From Patagioenas fasciata (Eukaryota > Chordata > Aves > Columbiformes > Columbidae): DNA of 64,000 bases. A model generated the notes under the pieces. The model was given only the letters and a program-made list of their open reading frames with translations, was not told where the DNA came from and made no database searches. This document shows, piece after piece, positions 1-52,690 of the stretch (position 1 is its first letter; each line of letters starts with the position of its first letter). The DNA is taken from contig NC_092525.1 of NCBI RefSeq assembly GCF_037038585.1, forward strand, positions 22,278,867-22,342,866, in the 5' to 3' direction. A program made the position numbers and the translations under genes.

Positions 1-435
1 ACATGTTCCTTTACCTTTTTAAAACCCAAATGCATGAATTCTGACTCTCCTTTGCACCTAAACCATCTCTTTTGCAAAACAAATAACAGGCTGATGGATG
101 CAACCACTCTATAAAGCTCAGATGGGGTGAAAAATTGAATTTTAAAACTTTGCAAACAAGTTGCTCTGAGTCAATTTTCCCACAGCTGAATCTATGCTCT
201 TGTCTGTTCTCATTTCCCACAGGTAGTTATGGCATTGGCAATTTCAAGTATTTCATAAATAACTTGCTGGTATGCAGCATGTTGCTTTATTTCCTCTCCT
301 ATAATTGAGTTTGACATTTTGATTCAGCATTGTACAAAGAGCAGACTCAATTTACTGAAATTTCTGTGGTCGATGCACTTAGGAGAAAATACTGATTCCA
401 TTTTGCAGTACATTCATTAAGGGAAACGTACTTAC

Positions 436-678
436 CTTACATTTGTTTGCAGAACCAAGTAGTCATTATCAGGAACAAGAGTTATATCTCGCTGTCCTCC
501 CTGGGGTAAGTCACAGTGTTGGGCAGGGATGGTTCTGACCTGAGGCCTGGTTTCCATGAGGTTTTTCTGGTTTCCCAGGTGAAGTCCAGTCTCATGGCTG
601 TTTGAAAGCCACCTGCAGAGCCATTTTGATTCTGTCTGACCCAACATGAACATCTGAAGTGTTTCCATCTGCTACCTA
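436..678 (-). other. Unassigned candidate exon (possible first coding exon)
   Basis: A minus-strand segment with a good acceptor (pyrimidine-rich stretch ending TTTCACACAG) at its right side and a near-perfect donor (AAG followed by GTAAGTACG) at 435/434. One frame is open from an ATG at 668-666 to the donor, giving 77 codons plus two bases. A stop lies just upstream in that frame, so if coding this would have to be the first coding exon. The other two frames are closed within the exon. The peptide starts METLQMFMLG and ends DNDYLVLQTNVR. I do not recognise a family. It lies downstream of the SHISAL2A poly(A) signal, so a separate gene or a non-coding transcript running off the left edge is more likely than a SHISAL2A exon. 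Confidence 0.35.
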
Positions 679-3600
679 CTGTGTGAAAGAAGAGGGAGAA
701 CACAGAGGCAGTGATAATGGCAAAGCACCTTGTCGTTGAAAGGTGTTACCTGTGGAATCCAGATTATTACAGTAAACATGACAACCGACAACATATAATG
801 TTCATCAGCCAGCTGCCCTCTCTCCCCTGCTGCTTCTTTCTAATTCTGGGCCTTGCTTCAGCACACCCTTTTGGAATTGAAGGCTTAGGAGGCTCAGGAT
901 GCTGCCCCATCACCACCTCTATGCTCCTGTGCATCCACAGTTCGTCCACAGCCAACAAAAGCCTGAACAAGCCATTTTCTCCCAAAAACTCCCGGTGACA
1001 CTGCTTGGCCCAGCTGGTGTAGGGCTCAGCACTCCTGATGGAGCAGAGAGAAAAATCATGGTCCTTAACATTAAAAATAGTCACAGCCCCTGTAACCACC
1101 AGCTTACTTTTAACAAGGGGGAAATGGAAGCTGTGGTTTCATAAGATACTCTTCAGCTAGAGTGTCCTGAAACATCAGCTGCAAAAAAGGTGCTTATGTG
1201 CAGCTCTTTGTACTTGCATTGTCTCCACTAAATCAATTTCAACACTTTGTGTTGCTGTTGCCATCAAAACGTACTCTTCTGTACATAAAGCAAGGATCTT
1301 CAACAGTTTTTCTAAAGGATGTGGATTGGAAAAAGCATACGAATAATGGAGAAGACTAAAAATATGTTTTTAAGTAGCAAGTGTATAACATAACTAATAC
1401 CTGAATTTTAGTACATTGCTCAGAGACATGGATTCAAAAATACCTGGATAGATTCTTCCCATACAAAGGCATTTTCTACAAATGTGCTATATAGACACAC
1501 ACACATATTTATATATATAAAAATCAACTATTTCTACCTGTAGACCACACTCTCGAGGTCACTGAGGAACAACAGAATGACAGCAAAGAGAAGCCAAGTG
1601 CAGTTATCCTGTCGACCACTAGAAACCAGCACTCTGTTTCCAAAGATCTACTCCAGGAACAAATGGTGGTTGGGAACTGCGACAGATCCTGATCGTTGGT
1701 GGTTGTTCAGGTCAGGTTTTGGATTTTTTCAATTTCTTGGTGTAGCAGAGATCTCTTTTTTGAACCAGAAATAGCTTCATGTTGCTAGGAACTGACTTTC
1801 CAAAAACTTGTCCATTGCAGAATTCTCTCATCCTCTGCTTTTAATGCAATATATTAATGGATTTTTATCCAGCTATTCAGTATCTATTAAAATATGAAGT
1901 CCAGTTACATTTTTTCTTAAATTTCTAAAAAAAAGGCTAAGAAAATAATTACTATAATAGATCTTCCACAGACACCTACTAAAGCACCACTCCTCTGACC
2001 TTATAGCTATAATAACTTCTAAATCTATGTGACAAAATCTTAAATTCCTTACCTCAAATTAAGAGAGATTGGATTTCTGTGAGCTTCAGTCTAACAGATG
2101 AAAACTTAAAAGCTTCTCATTTGTACTCCTAGGAAGCAGCTGAATCTTTATGATTTTCCTGACCCATGTTCTCCAAAACTTGAAGGATGGAACAATCTTA
2201 AAGATCCATAGCATTTGTCACGTTAGGAAAACAATGAAAACAGACATTATTTTCATTCAGTAAAACTGTGAGTTTCATTTGGCCTTTCGTCCATAACTTA
2301 GAAATTGCAAAGGCCAAAGCTTTCAGGAATTATACTTAAATAAGGTGACTAATTACGAAAGTCATTGATATTGTGGAACCATTGACATAGTATTTTCTAT
2401 TTAGACCCAAAGTCAGATTAAAGATTACAAGTGAACAGCCAGTCTTTAATATCGAAATATCCAGAGAATGATAAGGATGGGAAGAGTGAATCACTTCGGA
2501 GTGAGTGGCTACTGGTGCCAGTGCAAGTCCAAGGAAAGCTGCAGGCAGTCCCAGAACTACCAGTAGGCCCCAGTCTGGTCCCAGTGAAACCAGCCAGGGC
2601 CTGCTGCTCGTACTGCTCTAAACACACAAAAGCACACTTTCTGTATCTTATAGTCTGCGAAACATATTGCACGCTGTTTCACGATTCTCCCATTTTTATT
2701 TTGCCCTCACGATTCAAAAAATCCCTCAACTTTGAAAAACAATAAAAAACTTTCATAGCAACTCCTGTGAGCTCTATTAGTGTTGGTATGGCTGACAGTA
2801 ACAGCACAGCCCTCAGTTTGCTTTATTATTGTAAAACAAACATAAAATGTCATCTGGGTGTAAATGAGGGCTATGCCTAACAGGTATATTAAGCCTTATT
2901 ATGCCTGTTAAGCACAGGGAGCCACCCTTGTTGCGACTGGAAATTATGTTTGAAAGCTGTTATGGGCAGCACACTGAATCCCCTCATCAAAGCAGTGTGG
3001 GAGGCACTTTTTTTGTGACATTTAGAAAGCCTCAATTATAAAATAACAGCTAAAAAGGCAAATAAATGAATTTTCCTAACAATACCAAGAAAACATAAAC
3101 AGACACTGGACACAGGCAAAGAACCAGAAGCATTTTTTTGCATTCTGGTTTTACTCTTCTGCTGTTACTTTGGTATTTTAAGATACTCAACACAAATGAA
3201 AAGGCCAATATCTGAGGGAAAAATAACCTTGTCACTTGTTGAATCAAGCATGTAGAAATTGCCCAAATGACAAAAAATCAAAGATATTTTTATCTGCAAC
3301 ATTCAAAATAGACTATATCTTTTATTACTTTAAAATTTAAAAATTAGAAGAGTGCTGGTTCAAGTTTGTATGAAGTTGAAATAACTTTTTTTTTTTTTTT
3401 TCATTATCTGCAAGTCTTTTCTCAGTGGTTTAAAATGACACAGACTTCCAGAACATGTATCTCAGGGCTGGGATCCTCAAAGGAAACCAGGTAGCAAAAA
3501 TCATAAATCATTTTCCCTTATGGTCTTTGACAGTCACAATCAACAAAGTTACGAGACTGAAAGACCAGTTTTATGTTCTATTAGAAATGTATTTTCTTCA

Positions 3601-4509
3601 TGCATCCAATGTGGTTTTAATTTTCTAGGAGTCCACAGTAGCAAATGCCAGTTTAGTGAGCTAGTATATGCAAATAGTTACAGAAAGAACATGTATCACA
3701 ATCTCTGTTTCTTCTGGAGGCATCAGCATCTTTCACACAAGTAATGTGACTTAAGAGTAGCTTAGACTGGAAACACTTGAGCCTTTTGATGCATAACACT
3801 GGACAGCTGTCAAGAAATTTAAATCTCAGGCACTATCATGCACAAAGATGTCACTCCCAAAGAGCAGACATGAACCTGGTCTTCCAAAGCTGAAATATAA
3901 CCAGAAACACAAGAGACATGGTAGGTAAATATTTTAGGCTTCATCTGCAAATGCAGGAGATAATCTATCTACTGCCTTCACATAAACAGCACAGTTAATT
4001 ATTCTAGAAATTCTTTTGATCATTGATCTTAAAGAACCCTCACAAGATAAAAAGAAATAATTATCATTCTTGTTCGTGATTTGGAGCCTGAAAGCTTGAA
4101 AGACTTGGAAGCTCAAATATGACAGTTAAGACTATGTTAGTTGTTTCTAAGACTTCTGGGGAAATAAAATGTGCAATTAGAGCTCTCTGATTACCTGAAG
4201 GAAGTTCAAGATTTCACAAATTAGTGCTCCGACCTGGAATACTACTGGAAAATTTTTAAAGTTTGCATCAAAATAAATATTCCAAGATATTTTGATGTAG
4301 AATCTGCAAAACATTTGTGGATTTTTATTTCAATTCATTTCAGTGTTTATAATTTCCTATGAAAACAGCTATTTAAATAAAAAATCCCCATAGAACTTCA
4401 TTTTTTACTAACTTCACTTGCTTTTGGAAAACTCTTCCATCAAAGTAATTTTAAGATCTGTGAAAATCTTCTGAGGAAATAAAGGTGGAATAAAATGATA
4501 AATTAAGAA
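679..4509. other. Intergenic stretch, no gene recognised
   Basis: Short open frames only, none with a recognisable protein or a convincing splice context. Contents are AT-rich single-copy-looking DNA, a short AT-rich dinucleotide-like tract near 1508-1520 and a poly-T run near 3386-3400. The block at about 2760-3015 is more balanced in composition and rich in homeodomain-like and GATA-like words, and is listed under findings as a possible conserved non-coding element. Confidence 0.4.
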
Positions 4510-4828
4510 AAATACAACACAAACAAATGCCAGATTTTATTGAGGTACTGTGTTCACATGTCTGTGCAGCAAACAATCACATTTGGCTACAGACAACCAG
4601 ATCCATGACGTGAAGACACCACATTAAGATGGCACACAGGGAGAGCTTAAAAGAAAGCTTGGTCAACATGATGTGCCAAATTCTGCTCTGCTTGACAACT
4701 GTGTTATCTCACTGAAATTGCACAGGGTATAGACAAAAACGTGCACAAAAATGATGAGCAGCAGTAGCTGGTATGTGCAAATCAAAGTATAGCACTCAAA
4801 ACCATACACAATTAATCCTGACACAGCT
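4510..4828 (-). other. SHISAL2A: SHISAL2A 3' UTR
   Basis: Follows the stop codon directly and ends just past an AATAAA on the minus strand. Its length, about 310 nt, is ordinary for a short vertebrate 3' UTR. The exact cleavage point is inferred. Confidence 0.55.
4536..4541 (-). terminator. Poly(A) signal AATAAA of SHISAL2A
   Basis: Perfect AATAAA on the minus strand (TTTATT as printed), about 290 nt after the SHISAL2A stop codon. Cleavage would be expected some 15-30 nt further left, near 4510-4520. Confidence 0.6.
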
Positions 4829-21739
<16,911 letters not shown>

Positions 21740-29200: not shown

Positions 29201-32200
29201 AATAGATTGGCAGCCTCTGAAGCTAGCAAATCTTTTGCAAAAGAACATTTCATTATTAGAAATTGTCTTACTTTTTAACCAAACTGTTCCATAAGCTGAA
29301 ACTTGTGGAAAAATATCTGGTTTGACAAAATTCATAATATCACTTTTTAAGTTTTAAAATGATCAAAGCTCTCTGTATTGGCACATAGAGTCTATTTCTT
29401 GGTTTGACATTATTGTCTCTTTTAATATTTTATTTATCTTTTTAAAGTTTTAAAATTTGAATATCAGCTTTAAAACATTTCTTATCAATTGTATCCAAAC
29501 AAAATGTTTCAGCTTAACCTGAGTGATGGTTTGGGGGTTACTTTTGTTTGAAAACTAAAAATATTTGTACTCCGAACAGATTTGGAAGAGCAGACTTCAA
29601 ATATAAAATGCTTGTATGACAGGAAAACATTTCCCTACCTATCTGTAGTGATTACTGGTCTCTCCAGAGGATGGTAAAGTACCAGTAATAAAATAACTAG
29701 TATTTTGCATCTATATAAGTAGTGACAAATCAGAATGAGTGGCGTGACTCTAATTAAGGGTTAGAGAATCTTACTTGTAATTTAAACTGAGAATTCAGCG
29801 AGCTCTTTAATCACAAGAACAGTTTGACTATTGTGCCCTTTTTTTAAAGGATAGATAAACAATCTGTGGGTTACAGACATTTGCATCTGCAGCTGTTTTT
29901 TTATTTATCATAGTCAGATTTATTTGCTCGATAAATAAAAATATAATGGCTTATCATATAATTTAGATGAAAGCATTTAATTATGATGAAACAGCAATGC
30001 CTTCAGGGAAAGGGCAACAAAAAGACAGAGGACTATTTTATGTAATGCAATAATAGCTTTCTAACTGCATCTTTCACTTTAGAAAACTAAAACTCCAGCT
30101 CCCTGAAGCTATGATTTCTGCAATTTCTGTCTAACAGGGAAGTGTTCCACGGAACTGCTTTTATAGATCAGGTGTTACAGAAGTTCGTTCTTCAAGAAAT
30201 TGTACTTCAGTCTTTTCTATTGTTCTAGAATACTATTATTTCCTTTTATTATTCTCGTTTCATCAATTAGTGCTTAGGAAAGAATCTGTCCCTGACTCTG
30301 TGGATGCTGTTATTTCTGTTTGAGTGGAAGAAAAGAACCTACATAAGCTGAATTGTCTCAAAAAGTTTATGTCTGTGCTTGCCTTCCAGAATACAAGCCT
30401 GCTCACTTAAAATGCAATGATCTTTCAACTCTTCTTATTTTCTGAAATTACTTTAGAAGATCATCTTGCTGAGCAAGTATCATGCAATGCTTTGAGATAA
30501 AGCAGCATGCCTTATCTCTTAGGCCTGTGGATTGACAGCTTGGATCAGGTTTTCTAGGCTAAGAATGGAAAGTTCCTCGGGGCTGACTTCAGCTCCTGTG
30601 TGGAGACAGCTGGAAAAGGTCAGACAAAGCACAGACAGGCACCCACTGTTGCCCATGCCCAGCTGCTGCAGAGTTGGCATAAAAGATGTGGCTGAGTTCT
30701 ATTGTTTCTCATCCCGTATTGTGAACATCACTATTTGTGAGCTGCCAGGTCGAGGAGCTGGCTGTGTAGCATTAGATCAGTCACCTCTGTGATGATGTTC
30801 CAATACAGCTCAGATATTTCCTTCTGCTCTGTGTATGTCTCTGCTATGGAACTTTTATATGGTTCAGGTTAGTTCTCAGTGCTTTCAGTATTTCATCCAT
30901 AAATGGTTTGTAAATTCCTTTTCGTTTTGTCAGTGATGTTTTTACTCCAGGGTCTGTTAATCATGTCACAGACTACCTGATTTCTCTGCTTACTCAACTC
31001 TGTGAATGAATCAGAGGTAATTTCATGTGGCTGTCCAAGTAGCTGCAGTAAAAATTTACATGTGTATAGGACATATTTGATTGATCTAATAATTGAAGTT
31101 AGCATAAAATTTGTTTTGCTTATCAAAGGGATGTCCAGTCTTCTGAAAATACTGACCATGGTTAGCAATTTCTTGAAGCACATAACAATGTATTTGAAAT
31201 TATAAACTGGGTACCATCCAGTAGAGAGAAATTATGTCTGGGTTGCTACTAAGGTTTCAGAATAGAAACTTGAGTGAAATGTCCCTAGCATGTAACTAAA
31301 ATACCAGAGGTGGCTGTAAGGATAACTGGGCTATTTGGTTTTGTTCTTACAGTGCAAAAAACCAAAAGGGGTTAAACCTCTCTGTATTGCTCCATTTAAT
31401 TGTTCTATTTCAATGTAGCATATTCCATTTCAAAGCAGAGCTTTGGATATATGTGGGTCTGATTTTACATTGTTTATGAGACAAAATTTTGAAAGATTAG
31501 AAGGTTCCTGTCTAATTTTGAACTGATCATTAAACTTTAAAAATATTTCTTTTCCCGCTGGTGTGCCACAGGGGGCACATGCCTCCATACTATCATGCAT
31601 CTAGGTGCTTAGTTTAGCATTTAAATCAACATGCCAAGAATTTACGCCTTCAAAGTTGTGTATTGTAAGAGATGGAGTCTTAAATGATCAACAGAATCAC
31701 TCACCATCCATAAATGTGCTCATCTGTTAATGCACACTAATATATTCTCTGCAAAGGAGACAAACTGCAAAGAAAATAATCTCGTGCTCTATATTCAGAG
31801 GTGTTTTACAGTTTTCAGGACTTGGTGTAGGGAAGATCTCTATCCAATGAGTATTGTAACTCATGAGCCAAGAAAGTAATTTCTGATCTCTGTATGCCCT
31901 CTATATAGTTTCAACAGACAAATTCAACCCAGTGCAATTTACTTTGCAGTTTTTCTGAGCAGAAAATCATGAAGCATACCATGACTAGATATGAGTTAAT
32001 CGACAACTAAGAATATTTACTTTTCCTCTGTAACTTTGATTAAAGGACCAAAGCATTTGTTCTACAGACTGATTCCAGTGCAACAAAAGATGGAATACAT
32101 GCCACATGCTTAATTTAATCATGAAAATGTTTCTGTTAACTTCAGAGAGAATAGTTATGTGCTTAAAATCATGTACCTGTTCCAATGTATTGTTGTTTCA

Positions 32201-32293: not shown

Positions 32294-33703
32294 TAGCACT
32301 CAGACATCTGCTCATGCTTCAGACTGCAGAACTTCTTAGCTCATACTAAAATAATAACACTAACAATTACAGCCTCATTGTTCTTTGACAGAAATCCTTT
32401 GAAAGGATGTCAGCAAGAACTCTTTTTATCTGAACAAAAACACAATGTGCAGGTCCCCTGCTCTTAACCCCAGAATGTTTAAGAATCTAGTCTTGTCCAA
32501 TTGCAAAACTATTGACAAGTGAAAGATTTTTTTTTTCTTTGTAATGCTTTTTAAAGTAGCACAAACAATATTTGTCCATATAGTTGTCAGCACCCAAGTG
32601 TACAAATAAGCCTTAATTGACCTGACCATTAACTTTTTCCAACTCATCACTGCCACTATAGCTCTTCAGTATCAAACAGGCTCCAGTTGAAATCAATGGC
32701 AAGTCTTCCGGCTTTGCGAAACAAGAGGGGAAAGAAGAATACTGAAGAACTATTGGAAATAAAAGTGTCGATCCTAGAGTACATTCTATTTCCCATGCCT
32801 GAACAGCTGCTGTCTCCTGAAACCTTGGATTCATCCTATGGAGTGGTCTAAGGAAGTAGGAGCTAGAGGTACTTTACGATTTGCAGAAAGACCCTGAAGG
32901 GCAGTAACAGAAGTACAAGAGCAAAAAGAAAGATCAGGTAAGAAGGTAGAAAGCAGAAGGAAATGAGAAGACAGTTTGCAACCGAAGAATCTTCGGAACA
33001 CACAGGGCACGTGAACATTCAGGTCATACTAATACTAATGAGTATGTTCCAAACTGTATCAGCTACTTCTTACTTGAAGCGTAACTTGAGAGTGCAGGCA
33101 ATTCGTGCTCATGGCAGTGCATATGCCTGTATTTTCCTCCTCAGATGGTGAGAAAAGTGAACTCTACAGCAAGTGCTGCAGAGCTTAATTTTTTTTCCTT
33201 AGAAAGTATGTTTCTGTTTTATAACTGAAGCCTGGATGAGCCCAGACCATGCTTTGAAAGACACCTTAAGCCCTCTCTATTTGATTTATACATGTCCAAC
33301 TTCAAACATAACTATGGATTTGCATAGATATGATCTCACATTCTCTATTAGAGAAATTCTGGTAGTCTAAAGAGACACAATGGCAGTGATCAATCGGAAC
33401 AGGTTCATCCTATACAGACAAATGTTGTTTGTGCTGCTTTTAAAGGCATTGCGAAGCACAAAAAGAGCTTTCACTCATCAATAATACTGCAATTGGACGA
33501 GACTAGATTCTTCTTAAACATTCTGGGGTAAAGAGCAGGGGACCTGTACATTGTGTTTTTGTTCAGATAAAAAGAGTTCTTGCTGACAAAATTTTCAAAG
33601 GATTTCTGTCAAAGAACAATGAGGCTGTAATTGTTAGTGTTATTATTTTAGTATGAGCTAAGAAGTTCTGCAGTCTGAAATCTGGGCAGATGTATGAGTG
33701 CTA
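32294..33703. repeat. Long inverted repeat (about 1.4 kb, arms about 290-375 bp)
   Basis: The left arm 32294-32583 and right arm 33703-33410 are reverse complements, with an identical run of about 87 bp (32318-32404 in the left arm). The arms differ by scattered substitutions and small gaps elsewhere. A weaker inner match continues (32646-32670 against 33391-33366). The outer boundary is abrupt: TAGCACT at the left end, AGTGCTA at the right end, and no similarity beyond. The loop of about 0.7 kb holds no recognisable gene. TA at both outer ends would fit a TA target duplication, so a non-autonomous DNA transposon with long terminal inverted repeats is one reading. An inverted duplication is another. 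A transcript across it would fold into a long hairpin. Confidence 0.9.
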
Positions 33704-34462
33704 CATTTGAAAAAGATGCCATTAAACATTTGTACCACTAATGTAGTATTAAACAATGAAGCATTATGCAACAATTAAACATTTAAAAAATTATTTTAAT
33801 GGAAAAATGTTGATACTCTGATTTTGTCTGCACACGCAGCAAAATCAGATGGGGTTAAAAATTTTAAAATAGAATTGACATCAATTGTATGAGGAGAGAG
33901 TAATTCTTGTAAGGCAAAATGCTAATAGAAGAAATAAATAGTCTTTTCTTATAGGCTGTAGTCTTACAGATGTTCAAATGGCTATTTATATGTCACTGAT
34001 AATCTTTACTGGGTGAAAAGATACAGAAAATCGTCTCATAGTTTTTGGAGAATTTTCACAGACTTTGTCTTCACATTTCTTTCATTGAAGTTTTATAGAT
34101 GTCTTTTCCCCATGTCCTTCTTAATTGACTTCCTAGGCAGATGAAATTAAGTATATTTGGCCTTGGTAACTAAAGATGTATATGTAAGTCTGCCTGGTGT
34201 GAAGTTATGTTTTGGCCCTCTCCCGAGCACATGCCTTAATTCAATCATGCACTTTCTACTCTTTATTTTTTTATTCAGTTTGCAAACAAAATATGACAAC
34301 AGCATTGTAGATGTCAGTGAGATCCCAGTTGGGAAATTCTCATTATTCTGAGCCTTCTTCCTACAGATTCCTGAACCGAATTTGTAGTGTTACCAACAAT
34401 TAATAATTTGAATTGGGAAAGAAACAATTGCTGATGAGTTCTTCTTTCCCAGGAAGGTCAAA

Positions 34463-34468
34463 TTTATT
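34463..34468 (-). terminator. Candidate poly(A) signal of GPX7
   Basis: AATAAA on the minus strand about 185 nt after the GPX7 stop. Further AATAAA-like words occur on the same strand near 34262-34275, so the site actually used is uncertain. Confidence 0.4.
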
Positions 34469-34651: not shown

Positions 34652-34815
34652 TCATAATTCATCTTTCTTCTTCAGGATGATTTTCCTTACAAGTTCTGTA
34701 ACATAAGGTCTTATTTCTTCAACAGGGGCAGTGGAGTCCCAGGCCTTTACTACTTTCCCATTGGGGTCCACCAGGTATTTCCAGAAGTTCCAGGTTGGTT
34801 CTTCTCCTGTAGATT
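34652..34815 (-). CDS. GPX7: GPX7 coding exon 3 (C-terminus, KDEL)
   Basis: 164 nt with an acceptor ending CTCCCTGTAG. The split codon gives Glu, so the joined protein reads YLIESTGEEPTWNFWKYL, aligned without gaps to human YLAQTSGKEPTWNFWKYL. It ends EIRPYVTELVRKIILKKKDEL in effect, with TGA at 34654-34652. The terminal KDEL is a canonical ER-retrieval signal (human has REDL). Confidence 0.97.
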
Positions 34816-35082
34816 CTACAGGGAGGGGAAAAAAAAAGAAAAAAAACATGTGGAAACTTAGAAAAGAAAACCATGTTATCCAATTCCTGACATTTGTTCA
34901 TGTCAGTTTGATGATTACCTTCTCAGAGGAAGGAGTGTAAAATTAAGAGGGAGTTCAGACTGAATAAGATTAATTTTCTGACAGACAAGGAGCTTTAACT
35001 AGACAGAAGCCCTTGGAGACTAATGGAAACAGTCACCCTCCAGACAGACAGGACAAAGCAATATGATCGGTGTTAAAGTGTG

Positions 35083-35116
<34 letters not shown>

Positions 35117-38100
35117 TGCTATACAGATAAATCTGAAACAGTTGAACATTGATAGGAAAATGGAATTTGGCATAACAATATAGCTGTACCAGGACTATTT
35201 GCTTGCTTATCCAGAATTTTTCCTCCACAAGCACCCAGTATCATGTGCTTCAGAAGAACGTTTCCAGAAATGCTACATGAAGAAATAACAAAGTAATTTG
35301 TTCCAGCAGGTTTCTTCCTAATCCTCATCTACTACAGTTATTCTTTCCATGACCACACACTCATTTTACATGAGTCACATTCTTATACTCTGGTATTCTG
35401 CTACATGACTAACAAAATTTTCAGGATTTTCAATTCGACCTGGAGCCTCATCCCACTAATACAACTACAGATGCTACAAACAAATCAGCACCTTTTCCTA
35501 TTATTATACGTTGGGCAAAATCTCATAAAGACTCAGAAGATATTTCAAAGTCTCATAAGACACACCCAGACTTACACTGTTGACTATCTTGTCATTATGC
35601 TGTGTGAATATGCTGCCTCCAGCAGCCTCCCTTTGTGTGGACCAAGAGGGACTCAGAAGTTTTGCAAGTTCTGTGTGACAGGTCTGCAGTAACAACCCCA
35701 CTGGGCAAACAGAAACGGAAGGATGTCAAGAGGATTTAAGGTAAGTTTGGCGAGCAGAAAGATCCATTGCAGACACCTGGGAGGAGGTGTGCTTGGGGTA
35801 CCCCAAAATAACACTACCAACACTCCTTTAAATTCAGTGGTGTGTAGGAGAACACTGTGGTGCTGGAGAGAAGAAACAACAGAGTCCTTGCAGAATCCAG
35901 CTCAGGTGATACCATGTCATAAAATGGTATTTAGAGCATTTGTTCAGTGCATGAAATGTAGTGTCTTGATAAAGAAAGTAGTGCCTTGCTAGACAATATC
36001 CTGCCTTACAGTGTATTTTTTCAGCTGCACGCTAAGAACCAGCAAGATTTCTTCAGGTCTCAGTGCCAGCTATAATGCAGCTTAGAACTGGAGGAGCTGT
36101 ACAGCACGGCTATTCCAGTGCTTGGCAAGGAATGAGGAACATCTCGTAGTGCCTGGTTTCCCTTCTTCATTGTTGAAGTAAATTATGTAGGTGCTTCGCT
36201 TACATTTATCTTAAAGCTCTTGAGACGAATCTTATAAATCCAACCTGCAGCAATTGTGTCACAGGAGAAGTACTTATGAGACTGCAAAGTGGAAAAATGA
36301 AGACTGGGTATTGTATGCACACAGGAGAATATTGCAAGACCTGTATTCCACACAGAGGTTTATTAGACTAGTGCTTACAGAGCATTTGTTACTCTGTAAG
36401 CATTGTACTGCCTTCATCCCTGGAGATAATTTTAGAAGGTTAGACAAATCTGTGAGGAGTGACACAGAGAGAAATCCTGCCTTGTGCCGGAGGATGGACT
36501 AGGTGACTTCTGAACTCCTTGAGCTTGACAATTCTGTGCGATGAGTCTGTGAACGGTCATAGATATCTTTTTTATGACAAATGGCATTCTGTGTCAGAGA
36601 AATGGAACACTGGGAAACAACCCTCCAGTGTTCCAGATTACTCACCAATTAAGTATTTGAAGGCAGGAATCGCGCCGGCTCCGCTGACCGTAATTTTGCT
36701 GAACATAGGAAAGGAGGCACCATAAGTCTTTCGCGCAAAACTCTCGATTTCTTTGTCGGTGTCTGGTTCTTGCTGCCCAAACTGATTGCACGGGAACGCC
36801 AGCACATTGAAGTGATACGGGCCGAAGTCTCTCTGTAACTGTTGTAAGGCCTTGTAGTGGCTATCTGTGTACCCACACTCACTTGCAACATTGACAACTA
36901 GTGACACCTGAAGAAAAAGAGAGATTAAAAAATGCACTGCAGATGTCAGTTTTCCAACAGGTAGGGTGGGATGCAGATTATTTTTAAAAAATTAGAATGT
37001 CTAGAGAACTGTGAACACTTATGTTTGAAATTACATTGAGTTCTGTTCACAATGGGAATATTTAGTATTCCTTTTATGTATTCCCATTCGGCAACCATGA
37101 AGTTAATTGATAAACTGCTAAGCAATCATAATTCTCAGTTTACAGAGAATCTATGTTGTTCTGTTCTGCCTTTTGGATAGTTTCTAAGCACATTTAAGAA
37201 ATGACCATCCAGCTAAAGTATACCGAGTTCCATGGAAGAAACTTGCAAATTAATATATTTTGGTAGTTCATTTATCTGTAGTGAAGTATCTGTTCAGTGG
37301 CATCTTTCCTTATACAGAATGTAGATAATCTTATAAAGGAGAAGTTGATGTAATCTCCTTTGTGGTGTAGTGTGTCAACAGAATAAAATCAAAGTGACAC
37401 CTGTATACTTGCATATGAAATATGATCTGGAGCCATCTAGCTAATTCCCAAAGCATCACATTCATTCACACGACATTTACAAGCTCTCCCTGAAGTTTTA
37501 AATTCAGTCTCCTAAAACATCCAAAGGTATGACATATAGTTACATATGTTTTTGAGAAACAACAGGTAATTTTATGATGTATTCCTTTTGCAGACTGTCA
37601 GCATTTCAAATAGAACTTTAATAGTGAACATAAAAAATAACTATTGGCAGTTTTGTTGTTTTTCAGATAATCTGTATTTGCCAAGCATAGTGACAACTGT
37701 AGTTTAGTGTCATTGAAGTATATTGTGACACTAAGTGTTGAAGTCACACGTAGTTCTTTTATAAAAAATTCTAGAGAGTTTTAAAAATATAGTTTAAGAC
37801 TCAGCATTCTCATGATACAGAAGTATTCATATAACTTACCATATTCACATCTGTTGGTACTTTATCCCAGATCAGTAATGTAAGAATTTATCATTGGGAG
37901 TTTAGGGGAAATAAGGTTGTGTAGGTATTATGTTCATATTATAACAGATATGAAAGATGACTTGCCAATGAAAACAATCAAGCTTTTATAACTTTTATGC
38001 AATTTTGAAGTTAGGAGGGCTTGAAAGAATTCACTCAAAAAGAAACAACAATTTTAATTTTCAGCTGTTGAAAACCAGTGATTACTCAGCATGGTGGTAA

Positions 38101-41100: not shown

Positions 41101-42594
41101 TGAATTGTGAACGGGGGGGAGGAGGAGTTTGATCAGAAAAGATTCAGACCTCTCATTTGGTCCAAAACTATCAGAATCCCTTTCTACTGAGCTCAGGACA
41201 ACATACATCTCCTCCCATGGGCCTTCTCTGGCTTGATGCCCTGGGCTAGTGAGCTCAGGCACCTCAGTAAGGTACCTGGACAGGGGGAAAAGGAAGGTGG
41301 AAACACAAAGCAGTAGAATAAGGGTGAAAACAAAAAGTGGTGCCTGCCTTTTTAGGCAGCAGATAAACTGTTGGACTGCCTGGCTGTATCACACAAGATG
41401 TGTTACTTGAGTGCTAAGAGGAGCAGTTGTGGGCTTTACGTTGATTTTAGCTTCTCTAAGCTGTGAACGTGGCTATAAGAGCTTATAGTATTATGCCCCC
41501 TGTGTGCTAACTTCCCTTTGCACTCTTCCACCACTACTGACAATCTTTCCCAGATGGTCAAACCACTGAAAATAAAAAATTTAAAACGTTATGTTCAAGG
41601 AAATAGTTCTTAAAATGGGAAGGAAGGCTCTGCCTTGAACTCCTTAATATGTAAATTAAATTTAAAAGACACCATAAAAAAATATATATGTCTATTATGC
41701 CCTTCTGCACATTGGTCTGGCACACTAAAAAGTGACAAAAGGGAGTAGCATGATGTTGCTACAATTTCACTCTACACTGATATTAATTATTTCATCATGT
41801 CTCTTGCTTTTTTACTAATTATGGTGAAATCTGTTAACTCCATTAGCCACTGATTTTTTTTTTTTTTTTTTCATGCAGAACATAACAATGGAATGGAATT
41901 TAGGCAAAAATAATTTACTAAAAGCCATGCAGTTACAAGACAGAAATAAGCTCCAAAAGTAAGTTACACAAAGGTACAAACTTCCTAAGCTTCAAATATA
42001 TTATAGAGTACATTTGTGTATATATATACATTATATAATGTATAACAGCTGCTACCCAGGGCAGTTCATCCCGCTGAAGGCAAAGTAGTCTGTCCGTCCG
42101 TCCCTGCCACGTCTGCAGGCAGCAGCCCTCACAAGAGCAGAGGCGAGACCGCGAACGTTCTACTGAGCGCAAAAAGCTGCAGAACGGTCCCAAAGGCAGC
42201 ATGCAGGAAGAAGAGCTGCGAACCCAAATCTAGGGGCACGCCGGCACCAAGTTAATGTACAATCTTGCCACCCCCACTCGGGTTTTTACAGACATGCGTG
42301 GACCGGCTGATTAGTGAGTCCGGGCCAGAGCTGCCCATCTCCGCGCAGACTTACCGAGCCCCTGTACTTCTCCAGGGAGACTAGTTTGCCCCTGATGTTT
42401 ACAACTTTGAAAGTGTAAAAATCAGGCTCTTTCTGCTGCGTAGCAGAAAACGCTAAGAGCAGGAATGCAGCGATCGCAAGGAGCATGGCTAGAGGGATGA
42501 GGAAAACTTTGGGAAAGGCAGAGGAAGGCTGGTGCTCCACACTGCCCTCAGGATCTAGCATGCTGCACCGCCCTGCTGCGGAGCCACTTGTCAT
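34652..42594 (-). CDS. GPX7: GPX7 gene (glutathione peroxidase 7), three exons
   Basis: ER-resident thioredoxin-fold peroxidase that uses a cysteine instead of selenocysteine. Known roles of the family are clearing H2O2 in the ER and passing oxidising equivalents to PDI. Exons 42594-42355, 36907-36646 and 34815-34652 join to 666 nt (221 codons plus stop) with agreeing phases 0 and 1. From the first ATG, the peroxidatic cysteine is C91 in ECGYTD, the second cysteine is C120 in the FPCNQFG signature, and the WNFWKY block (W176, N177) supplies the other catalytic residues. The C-terminus is KKKDEL, a KDEL ER-retrieval signal. The FKVVNIRGKLVSLEKYRGS segment and synteny with TUT4 and SHISAL2A identify GPX7 rather than GPX8. 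Oddity: starting from the first ATG gives a 36-residue extension ahead of a hydrophobic segment. Starting at M37 gives 185 residues, close to the human 187. Confidence 0.95.
35085..35115. repeat. (TG)n microsatellite
   Basis: About 15 uninterrupted TG units inside GPX7 intron 2; likely length-polymorphic. Confidence 0.95.
36400..36545 (+). mobile_element. CR1 3' fragment, diverged
   Basis: The words ccctggagataattttagaa, ccttgtgccggaggatgg, actaggtgacttctgaactcc and aattctgtgcgatgag follow the order of the CR1 3' UTR (gaggttttcaaggc, ccttgtgcagggggatgg, actaggtgacttcc, attctatga). The copy is 5'-truncated and old. Confidence 0.65.
36646..36907 (-). CDS. GPX7: GPX7 coding exon 2 (catalytic cysteine)
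   Basis: 262 nt with acceptor TTTTTCTTCAG and donor ATTG followed by GTGAGT. It encodes VSLVVNVASECGYTDSHY, then FNVLAFPCNQFGQQEPD, KEIESFARKTYG and PAFKYLI, close to human GPX7 over its whole length. It ends in phase 1. A CR1 3' fragment lies about 100 bp beyond the donor, inside intron 2. Confidence 0.97.
39115..39300 (+). repeat. MIR-like ancient SINE fragment
   Basis: Words in MIR order: ccaaagcgctgcacttacat, cttaattacagctcagcac, gtgttgtaggtgggtagg, then ggagttctgactcccag near the end. Compare aagcgctttacaaacatta, gtgaggtaggta and gagtcctgactcccag of MIR/CORE-SINEs. The order is kept and divergence is moderate. Confidence 0.55.
40044..40068. repeat. (TA)n microsatellite
   Basis: About twelve TA units in GPX7 intron 1. 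Confidence 0.9.
42355..42594 (-). CDS. GPX7: GPX7 coding exon 1 (N-terminus and hydrophobic segment)
   Basis: 240 nt, 80 codons, donor TCG followed by GTAAGTCTG. Residues 1-29 are polar (MTSGSAAGRCSMLDPEG onward), residues 30-51 are hydrophobic (VFLIPLAMLLAIAAFLLLAF), then QQKEPDFYTFK starts the peroxidase fold. ATGs occur at codons 1, 12 and 37. The M37 context (GCCATGC) has G at -3, and M1 (ATCATGA) has A at -3. The first start would give a signal-anchor or long signal peptide; the third gives an ordinary cleavable signal peptide like that of human GPX7. Confidence 0.9.
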
Positions 42595-52642: not shown

Positions 52643-52690
52643 AAAGATAGCAACATCCCTAAGTAGAAAGATAGCAACATTCCTAAGTAG
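52643..52690. repeat. 24-bp tandem duplication (two units)
   Basis: The unit aaagatagcaacatccctaa gtag occurs twice back to back, with one mismatch (ccct versus tcct). It is a local slippage product in TUT4 intron 1. Confidence 0.95.

Follow-up and report, generated by a model that had tools for sequence, protein, structure and literature searches.

Two processes, gene conversion and template switching during replication, have both been proposed for inverted repeats (PMC1803023; PMC8604942). Template switching is reported to homogenize the arms of inverted repeats and to make multi-base changes, and the passage from a near-perfect to a perfect inverted repeat is given as typical of short-range template switching (PMC8604942; PMC7954356). 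In yeast, the instability of inverted repeats falls steeply with spacer length and with divergence in normal cells (PMC10164571). The rule of Lirex classes a long inverted repeat as recombinogenic when the ratio of arm to spacer is at least as large as the mismatch rate (PMC5414712). For transposons, the avian mariner galluhop carries mariner-type terminal inverted repeats (TIRs), which in that superfamily measure about 28 bp, and has several to many copies in each of 6 genomes, with 4 to 10,158 in the published table (PMC5556988).

The locus analyzed here is an inverted repeat of Patagioenas fasciata, located between GPX7 and SHISAL2A in a window of 64 kb, by which we mean the whole stretch of DNA that was analyzed. 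It is real, well delimited, single-copy at the sensitivity of the searches used, and of a known kind. We favor, with a probability of roughly 0.7, the reading that single-copy DNA was long ago duplicated in place in inverted orientation, and that arm-to-arm conversion or template switching later homogenized part of it.

Comparison of the window with itself aligns the two arms as reverse complements, at 89.1% identity over 294 columns, in agreement with the original prediction of two arms of about 290 bp. The pair resolves into pieces of 111 bp at 95%, 78 bp at 97%, and 103 bp at 83%, with a further inner piece of 42 bp at 74% (Table 1). The mismatch-free run of 87 bp that had been predicted at 32318-32404 is also present, and pairs with 33593-33679. 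The loop, previously put at roughly 0.7-0.8 kb, measures more exactly 826 bp between the 290-bp arms and 697 bp inside the inner match. A further diverged match on the inner side had likewise been anticipated and is seen at 32628-32669 and 33367-33408, where it stands above chance in place (0/300 shuffles, or 4/300 when the whole inner interval is allowed); inside 32670 and 33366, no arm-to-arm similarity was found. The 44 bp at 32584-32627, which face 1 bp, represent either an insertion on the left or a deletion on the right. As for the outer side, the sharp stop in similarity that had been claimed holds: beyond 32294 and 33703, the similarity score of the flanks is matched by 136/300 shuffles for 800-bp flanks and by 300/300 for 60 bp (gap costs 5/1). 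A laxer alignment reaches 7 columns further out, with 6 matches, across a 4-bp gap, and we take this extension for chance. The similarity was thought to fade gradually on the inner side; what we observe instead is a stepwise drop in identity near 32490.

Table 1. Parts of the inverted repeat between GPX7 and SHISAL2A, in window coordinates
Feature	Position	Strand	Description
Left arm	32294-32583	+	290 bp; 89.1% to the reverse complement of 33410-33703 over 294 columns
Right arm	33410-33703	-	294 bp; same alignment as left arm
Near-identical tract, left arm	32318-32480	+	2 substitutions in 160 clean columns; one complex difference of 3-4 bp; 3-bp indel at inner edge
Near-identical tract, right arm	33516-33679	-	Partner of 32318-32480; coordinates from matched pairs
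Palindrome ATCCTTT-G-AAAGGAT	32394-32408	+	15 bp; at the sole complex difference between the arms; right arm reads AAAATTTT
Unmatched 44 bp, left arm	32584-32627	+	Faces 1 bp on the right; gap between matched blocks
Diverged inner continuation, left arm	32628-32669	+	74% to 33367-33408
Diverged inner continuation, right arm	33367-33408	-	74% to 32628-32669
Spacer	32670-33366	.	697 bp; arm-to-arm similarity reached by 239/300 shuffles

Chance is ruled out as the origin of the repeat. The longest exact inverted repeat in the window is 87 bp, falling to 24 when the element is removed; in none of 30 simulated 64-kb sequences (first-order Markov) does it exceed 20. When BLAST compares the window with its own minus strand (E 1e-3, dust on, at least 40 columns), this pair is the only one returned; an ungapped repeat finder gives 20 window pairs, three of them pieces of the GPX7-adjacent repeat and the remaining 17 being 30-50 nt long at 70-77% identity. 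As a background, 14 stretches of 10 kb from the same genome (140 kb, including 1120 N) hold nine inverted pairs of at least 40 columns (E 1e-3, dust on), the longest of which covers 507 columns at 69%; none of the pairs in these stretches reaches 80% over 100 columns. An inverted pair such as ours looks uncommon in its genome, as judged from a small sample of 140 kb. We also note a separate inverted pair (L022 and L028, on C1 near 174.43 and 174.47 Mb), met via the terminal pattern discussed below, whose members lie about 45 kb apart, with 89% identity in an alignment of 674 columns and 98% in one of 336; inverted duplications are therefore present elsewhere in this genome.

The two arms have diverged unevenly along their length. 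Measured by block, the K2P distance is 0.248 at 32294-32317 (24 columns), 0 at 32318-32404 (87), 0.028 at 32408-32480 (73), and 0.205 at 32481-32583 (103), such that two substitutions in the 160 clean columns of the tract compare with a K2P of about 0.2 both in the inner part and in an outer block of only 24 bp. Altogether, 28 of the 290 aligned columns differ, in addition to indels. When 28 differences were permuted over 290 columns 20,000 times, 0.095% of the outcomes held a mismatch-free run of 87 columns and 0.045% a stretch of some 160 columns with five differences or fewer, under the assumption that neighboring changes are independent and for a region that is the one singled out by the finding. 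Homogenization would be recognized by a block in which the arms are much more alike than elsewhere, and they contain such a block (permutation frequencies of 0.00095 and 0.00045). A very rough dating (T = k/2r) puts 32481-32583 at about 54 Myr and the tract at about 3 Myr, using a rate of 1.9e-3 for Gallus, quoted in PMC5556988, which may not be that of the host.

The sole complex difference between the arms, at 32405-32408, falls inside a short quasi-palindrome. A perfect palindrome (7 + 1 + 7 bp) is found there in the left arm only, the right arm being without any that has arms of at least 6 bp; comparable palindromes, with an arm of at least 7 and a loop of 0-1, number 30 in the 64 kb. The right-arm version also folds with a neighboring word, as a hairpin, and the change can therefore be read in either direction. 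On a slightly larger scale, about 41 bp of the left arm (32380-32420) are quasi-palindromic, with 79% identity to their own complement over 43 columns; this small hairpin is nested in the long one and coincides with the only complex arm difference.

In the reading that we prefer, some 340-380 bp of single-copy DNA between GPX7 and SHISAL2A would have been duplicated locally in inverted orientation, with about 0.7 kb left between the copies as a spacer; fold-back or a template switch at a replication fork is the presumed route. Divergence of the arms to about 0.2 substitutions per site would have followed, and the middle 163 bp of one arm would later have been overwritten from the other, in one or more events, by arm-to-arm gene conversion or by a template switch; we infer this overwriting because the identity is patchy. 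Afterwards, the tract would have gained two substitutions, one multi-base change associated with the palindrome, and one 3-bp change in repeat length. Such a history would lie behind what is directly observed, namely the arms, their single-copy status at the sensitivity of the search, and the step in divergence. The palindrome-associated difference inside the tract fits this reading. On the other side, and by analogy, the length of the spacer, 0.7-0.8 kb, speaks against homogenization, given the steep loss of instability with longer spacers in normal yeast cells (PMC10164571), as does the shortness of the template-switch repeats in PMC8604942. The uneven divergence could also stem from uneven constraint, which would look much the same, or from arms that were unequal from the start. 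Of the two readings offered in the original prediction, a transposon and conversion inside an older inverted duplication, the latter is the better, being supported by the permutation-tested clustering and by the steps in K2P, and the transposon is less likely.

The question of copy number was addressed in the genome itself (1,453,922,657 bases, 359 contigs), which at 1.45 Gb is large for a bird. The left arm has two matches from two candidates, and these are both arms of the GPX7-adjacent locus; the 2-kb stretch 32000-34000 matches only itself, apart from the cross-matches of its arms. For a positive control, we used the ORF at 15121-15447, a CR1-like LINE fragment, which gave 40 scored matches, itself included, at 95-100% from 418 candidates. 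The search thus detects abundant young repeats, and diverged or very common words could be missed. The CR1-like fragment at 15121-15447 shows no Pfam match; its family is young and abundant in this 1.45-Gb genome. At the sensitivity used, the arms are single-copy DNA with no detectable repeat family, and the contrast between a left arm whose sole matches in 1.45 Gb are at this locus and a control with 40 scored matches counts for a local duplication. Dispersed copies of a single arm, for which the original prediction had allowed, are absent from the genome as searched. A chance head-to-head pair of dispersed repeats is ruled out, as neither the left arm nor the 2-kb stretch matches anything else. 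Also ruled out is contaminating DNA from viral or prokaryote sources: an exact 26-mer of the tract has, as expected, 0 occurrences in viral_contigs and 0 in genome_contigs (viral and prokaryote contigs).

An ancient non-autonomous DNA transposon inserted at a TA, with very long TIRs and with relatives that have since vanished or become too diverged to detect, is in our view an unlikely identity for the element. Its sharp outer edges, which read TA-GCACTC ... GAGTGC-TA and beyond which the flanks are no more similar than shuffles, would suit a transposon, as would the declining inner similarity, a feature that some long-TIR elements show. The locus also illustrates that sharp, TA-bounded ends do not alone prove a transposon. 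The TA is present at both edges but is also part of the inverted repeat, the best direct matches in the flanks are imperfect and of 4-10 bp, and no flanking duplication beyond the TA itself was seen around the element. Between the arms, identity is lower in the outermost 24 bp than in the 163 bp that follow, and poorer identity at the very ends is not what a transposon predicts. None of the 5 stop-to-stop ORFs of at least 60 codons that overlap the element has a Pfam match at E 0.1. That neither the left arm nor the 2-kb stretch recurs in the genome as searched further argues against a transposon. Galluhop, with its mariner-type TIRs, is found in several to many copies per genome (PMC5556988).

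The termini lead to the same result. With up to two mismatches, the terminal 21-mer occurs at 27 places in the genome, two of which are the arms. Ten of the 25 other places were fetched and compared. Their resemblance to the element covers 29 columns or fewer at the terminus; apart from that, they show a few faint similarities, none better than E 0.15, and one of these (L029) runs into an A/T run beside the terminus. Our own estimate of the chance expectation is about 17 (19 fixed bases, two mismatches, 1.45 Gb, equal base frequencies), and the 25 places are not far from chance level. A backward-read control of the pattern gave 0 and 0, which alone would speak against chance, but we regard this control as a weak one because of its two CpG. 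We reject a transposon family defined by shared termini, the ten fetched places of 25 never extending past those 29 columns, and the TA-targeting non-autonomous element of the original prediction is not supported.

The repeat had been placed between SHISAL2A and GPX7, and this position is confirmed by protein searches with human sequences and by a Pfam GSHPx match in the middle exon of GPX7 (E 3.8e-30). Both genes lie on the minus strand, with GPX7 matching at 42295-42432, 36650-36955, and 34655-34819, and SHISAL2A at 21548-21739 and 16453-16623. TUT4 matches on the plus strand from 54589; upstream of its start match, there is a 24-bp tandem duplication at 52643-52690, with two copies at 95%. 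The GPX7 stop codon and the repeat, which lies on its downstream side, are about 0.95 kb apart, and the minus strand in this interval carries AATAAA at 34468, 34275, and 34267 and ATTAAA at 33800, followed beyond the repeat by ATTAAA at 32119 and 31400. Judged from these hexamers only, the repeat is probably outside the usual GPX7 mRNA, because polyadenylation-type hexamers (AATAAA/ATTAAA) precede it.

A long double-stranded RNA (dsRNA) hairpin, which could be a substrate for ADAR, is structurally possible in the folding model: 270 of the 290 left-arm bases are predicted to pair with the right arm, the longest uninterrupted helix is 88 bp, and the minimum free energy is -654.4 kcal/mol for 1438 nt, a value that has no shuffle control at that length. 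It appears quite improbable, though, that the pairing is kept by selection and that a transcript, for example by read-through from GPX7, serves as dsRNA for ADAR or small-RNA pathways. The predicted stem, the position downstream of the GPX7 stop codon, and the ATTAAA at 32119, which would permit a long 3' end that includes the repeat, are all in keeping with this function, and intergenic inverted repeats of nematodes have been argued to be actively maintained (PMC1803023). Against it are the four hexamers between the stop codon and the repeat, the absence of Rfam matches in the window at the gathering threshold, and the 18 substitutions in 98 columns at 32486-32583 together with the 44 unmatched bp, which strict selection for pairing would not predict. 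We give slightly less credence still to a single-copy stem near GPX7 that is actively kept paired over the long term by conversion, as a putative dsRNA source or cruciform element. Finally, although near-identical inverted pairs can arise in assembly, it is very improbable that such an error produced one of the arms here from the other, because the divergence is uneven (28/290 aligned columns, plus indels) and the spacer and flanks are distinct sequence, and the window is without N inside a contig of 56 Mb.

Among the titles listed by literature searches that were not aimed at gene names, none is on this locus, which says little about the published record. Otherwise a fairly ordinary genomic feature, the locus offers a clean single-copy case of a partly homogenized inverted repeat, of intermediate size, in which the step from the old part to the recent tract can be dated with orthologs. 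It resembles galluhop (PMC5556988) in having a terminal inverted structure that ends in TA; it differs in being single copy, in having arms about 10 times the 28 bp of the superfamily, and in having no family member found, a separation made by description and not by sequence. Long inverted repeats in the sense of Lirex are defined by arms of more than 30 bp that share over 85% identity and have a GC content over 20% (PMC5414712), and ours compare at 290/294 bp, 89.1%, and a GC of 0.27-0.37 in the aligned blocks. An arm/spacer ratio of 0.35 against a mismatch rate of 0.11 would place the repeat among the recombinogenic ones, a class that comes from the published rule applied to our measured figures. 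A difference from the repeats of Lirex is that the arms here are single-copy at the search sensitivity, rather than dispersed repeats such as Alu in opposite orientation.

There is also a likeness in structure to homogenized inverted repeats, as described in yeast (PMC8604942) and nematodes (PMC1803023). The arms in the table of the yeast study are of 7-16 bp; those found here, at about 300 bp, are far longer, as is the spacer of 0.7-0.8 kb. The nematode example, with 2207 bp at 99.7%, is in turn longer and more alike than the GPX7-adjacent repeat. Relative to both, the arms of our repeat are without detected paralogous genes. What it shares with them is a patch of near-identity inside older, diverged arms, and a multi-base change tied to a local palindrome.
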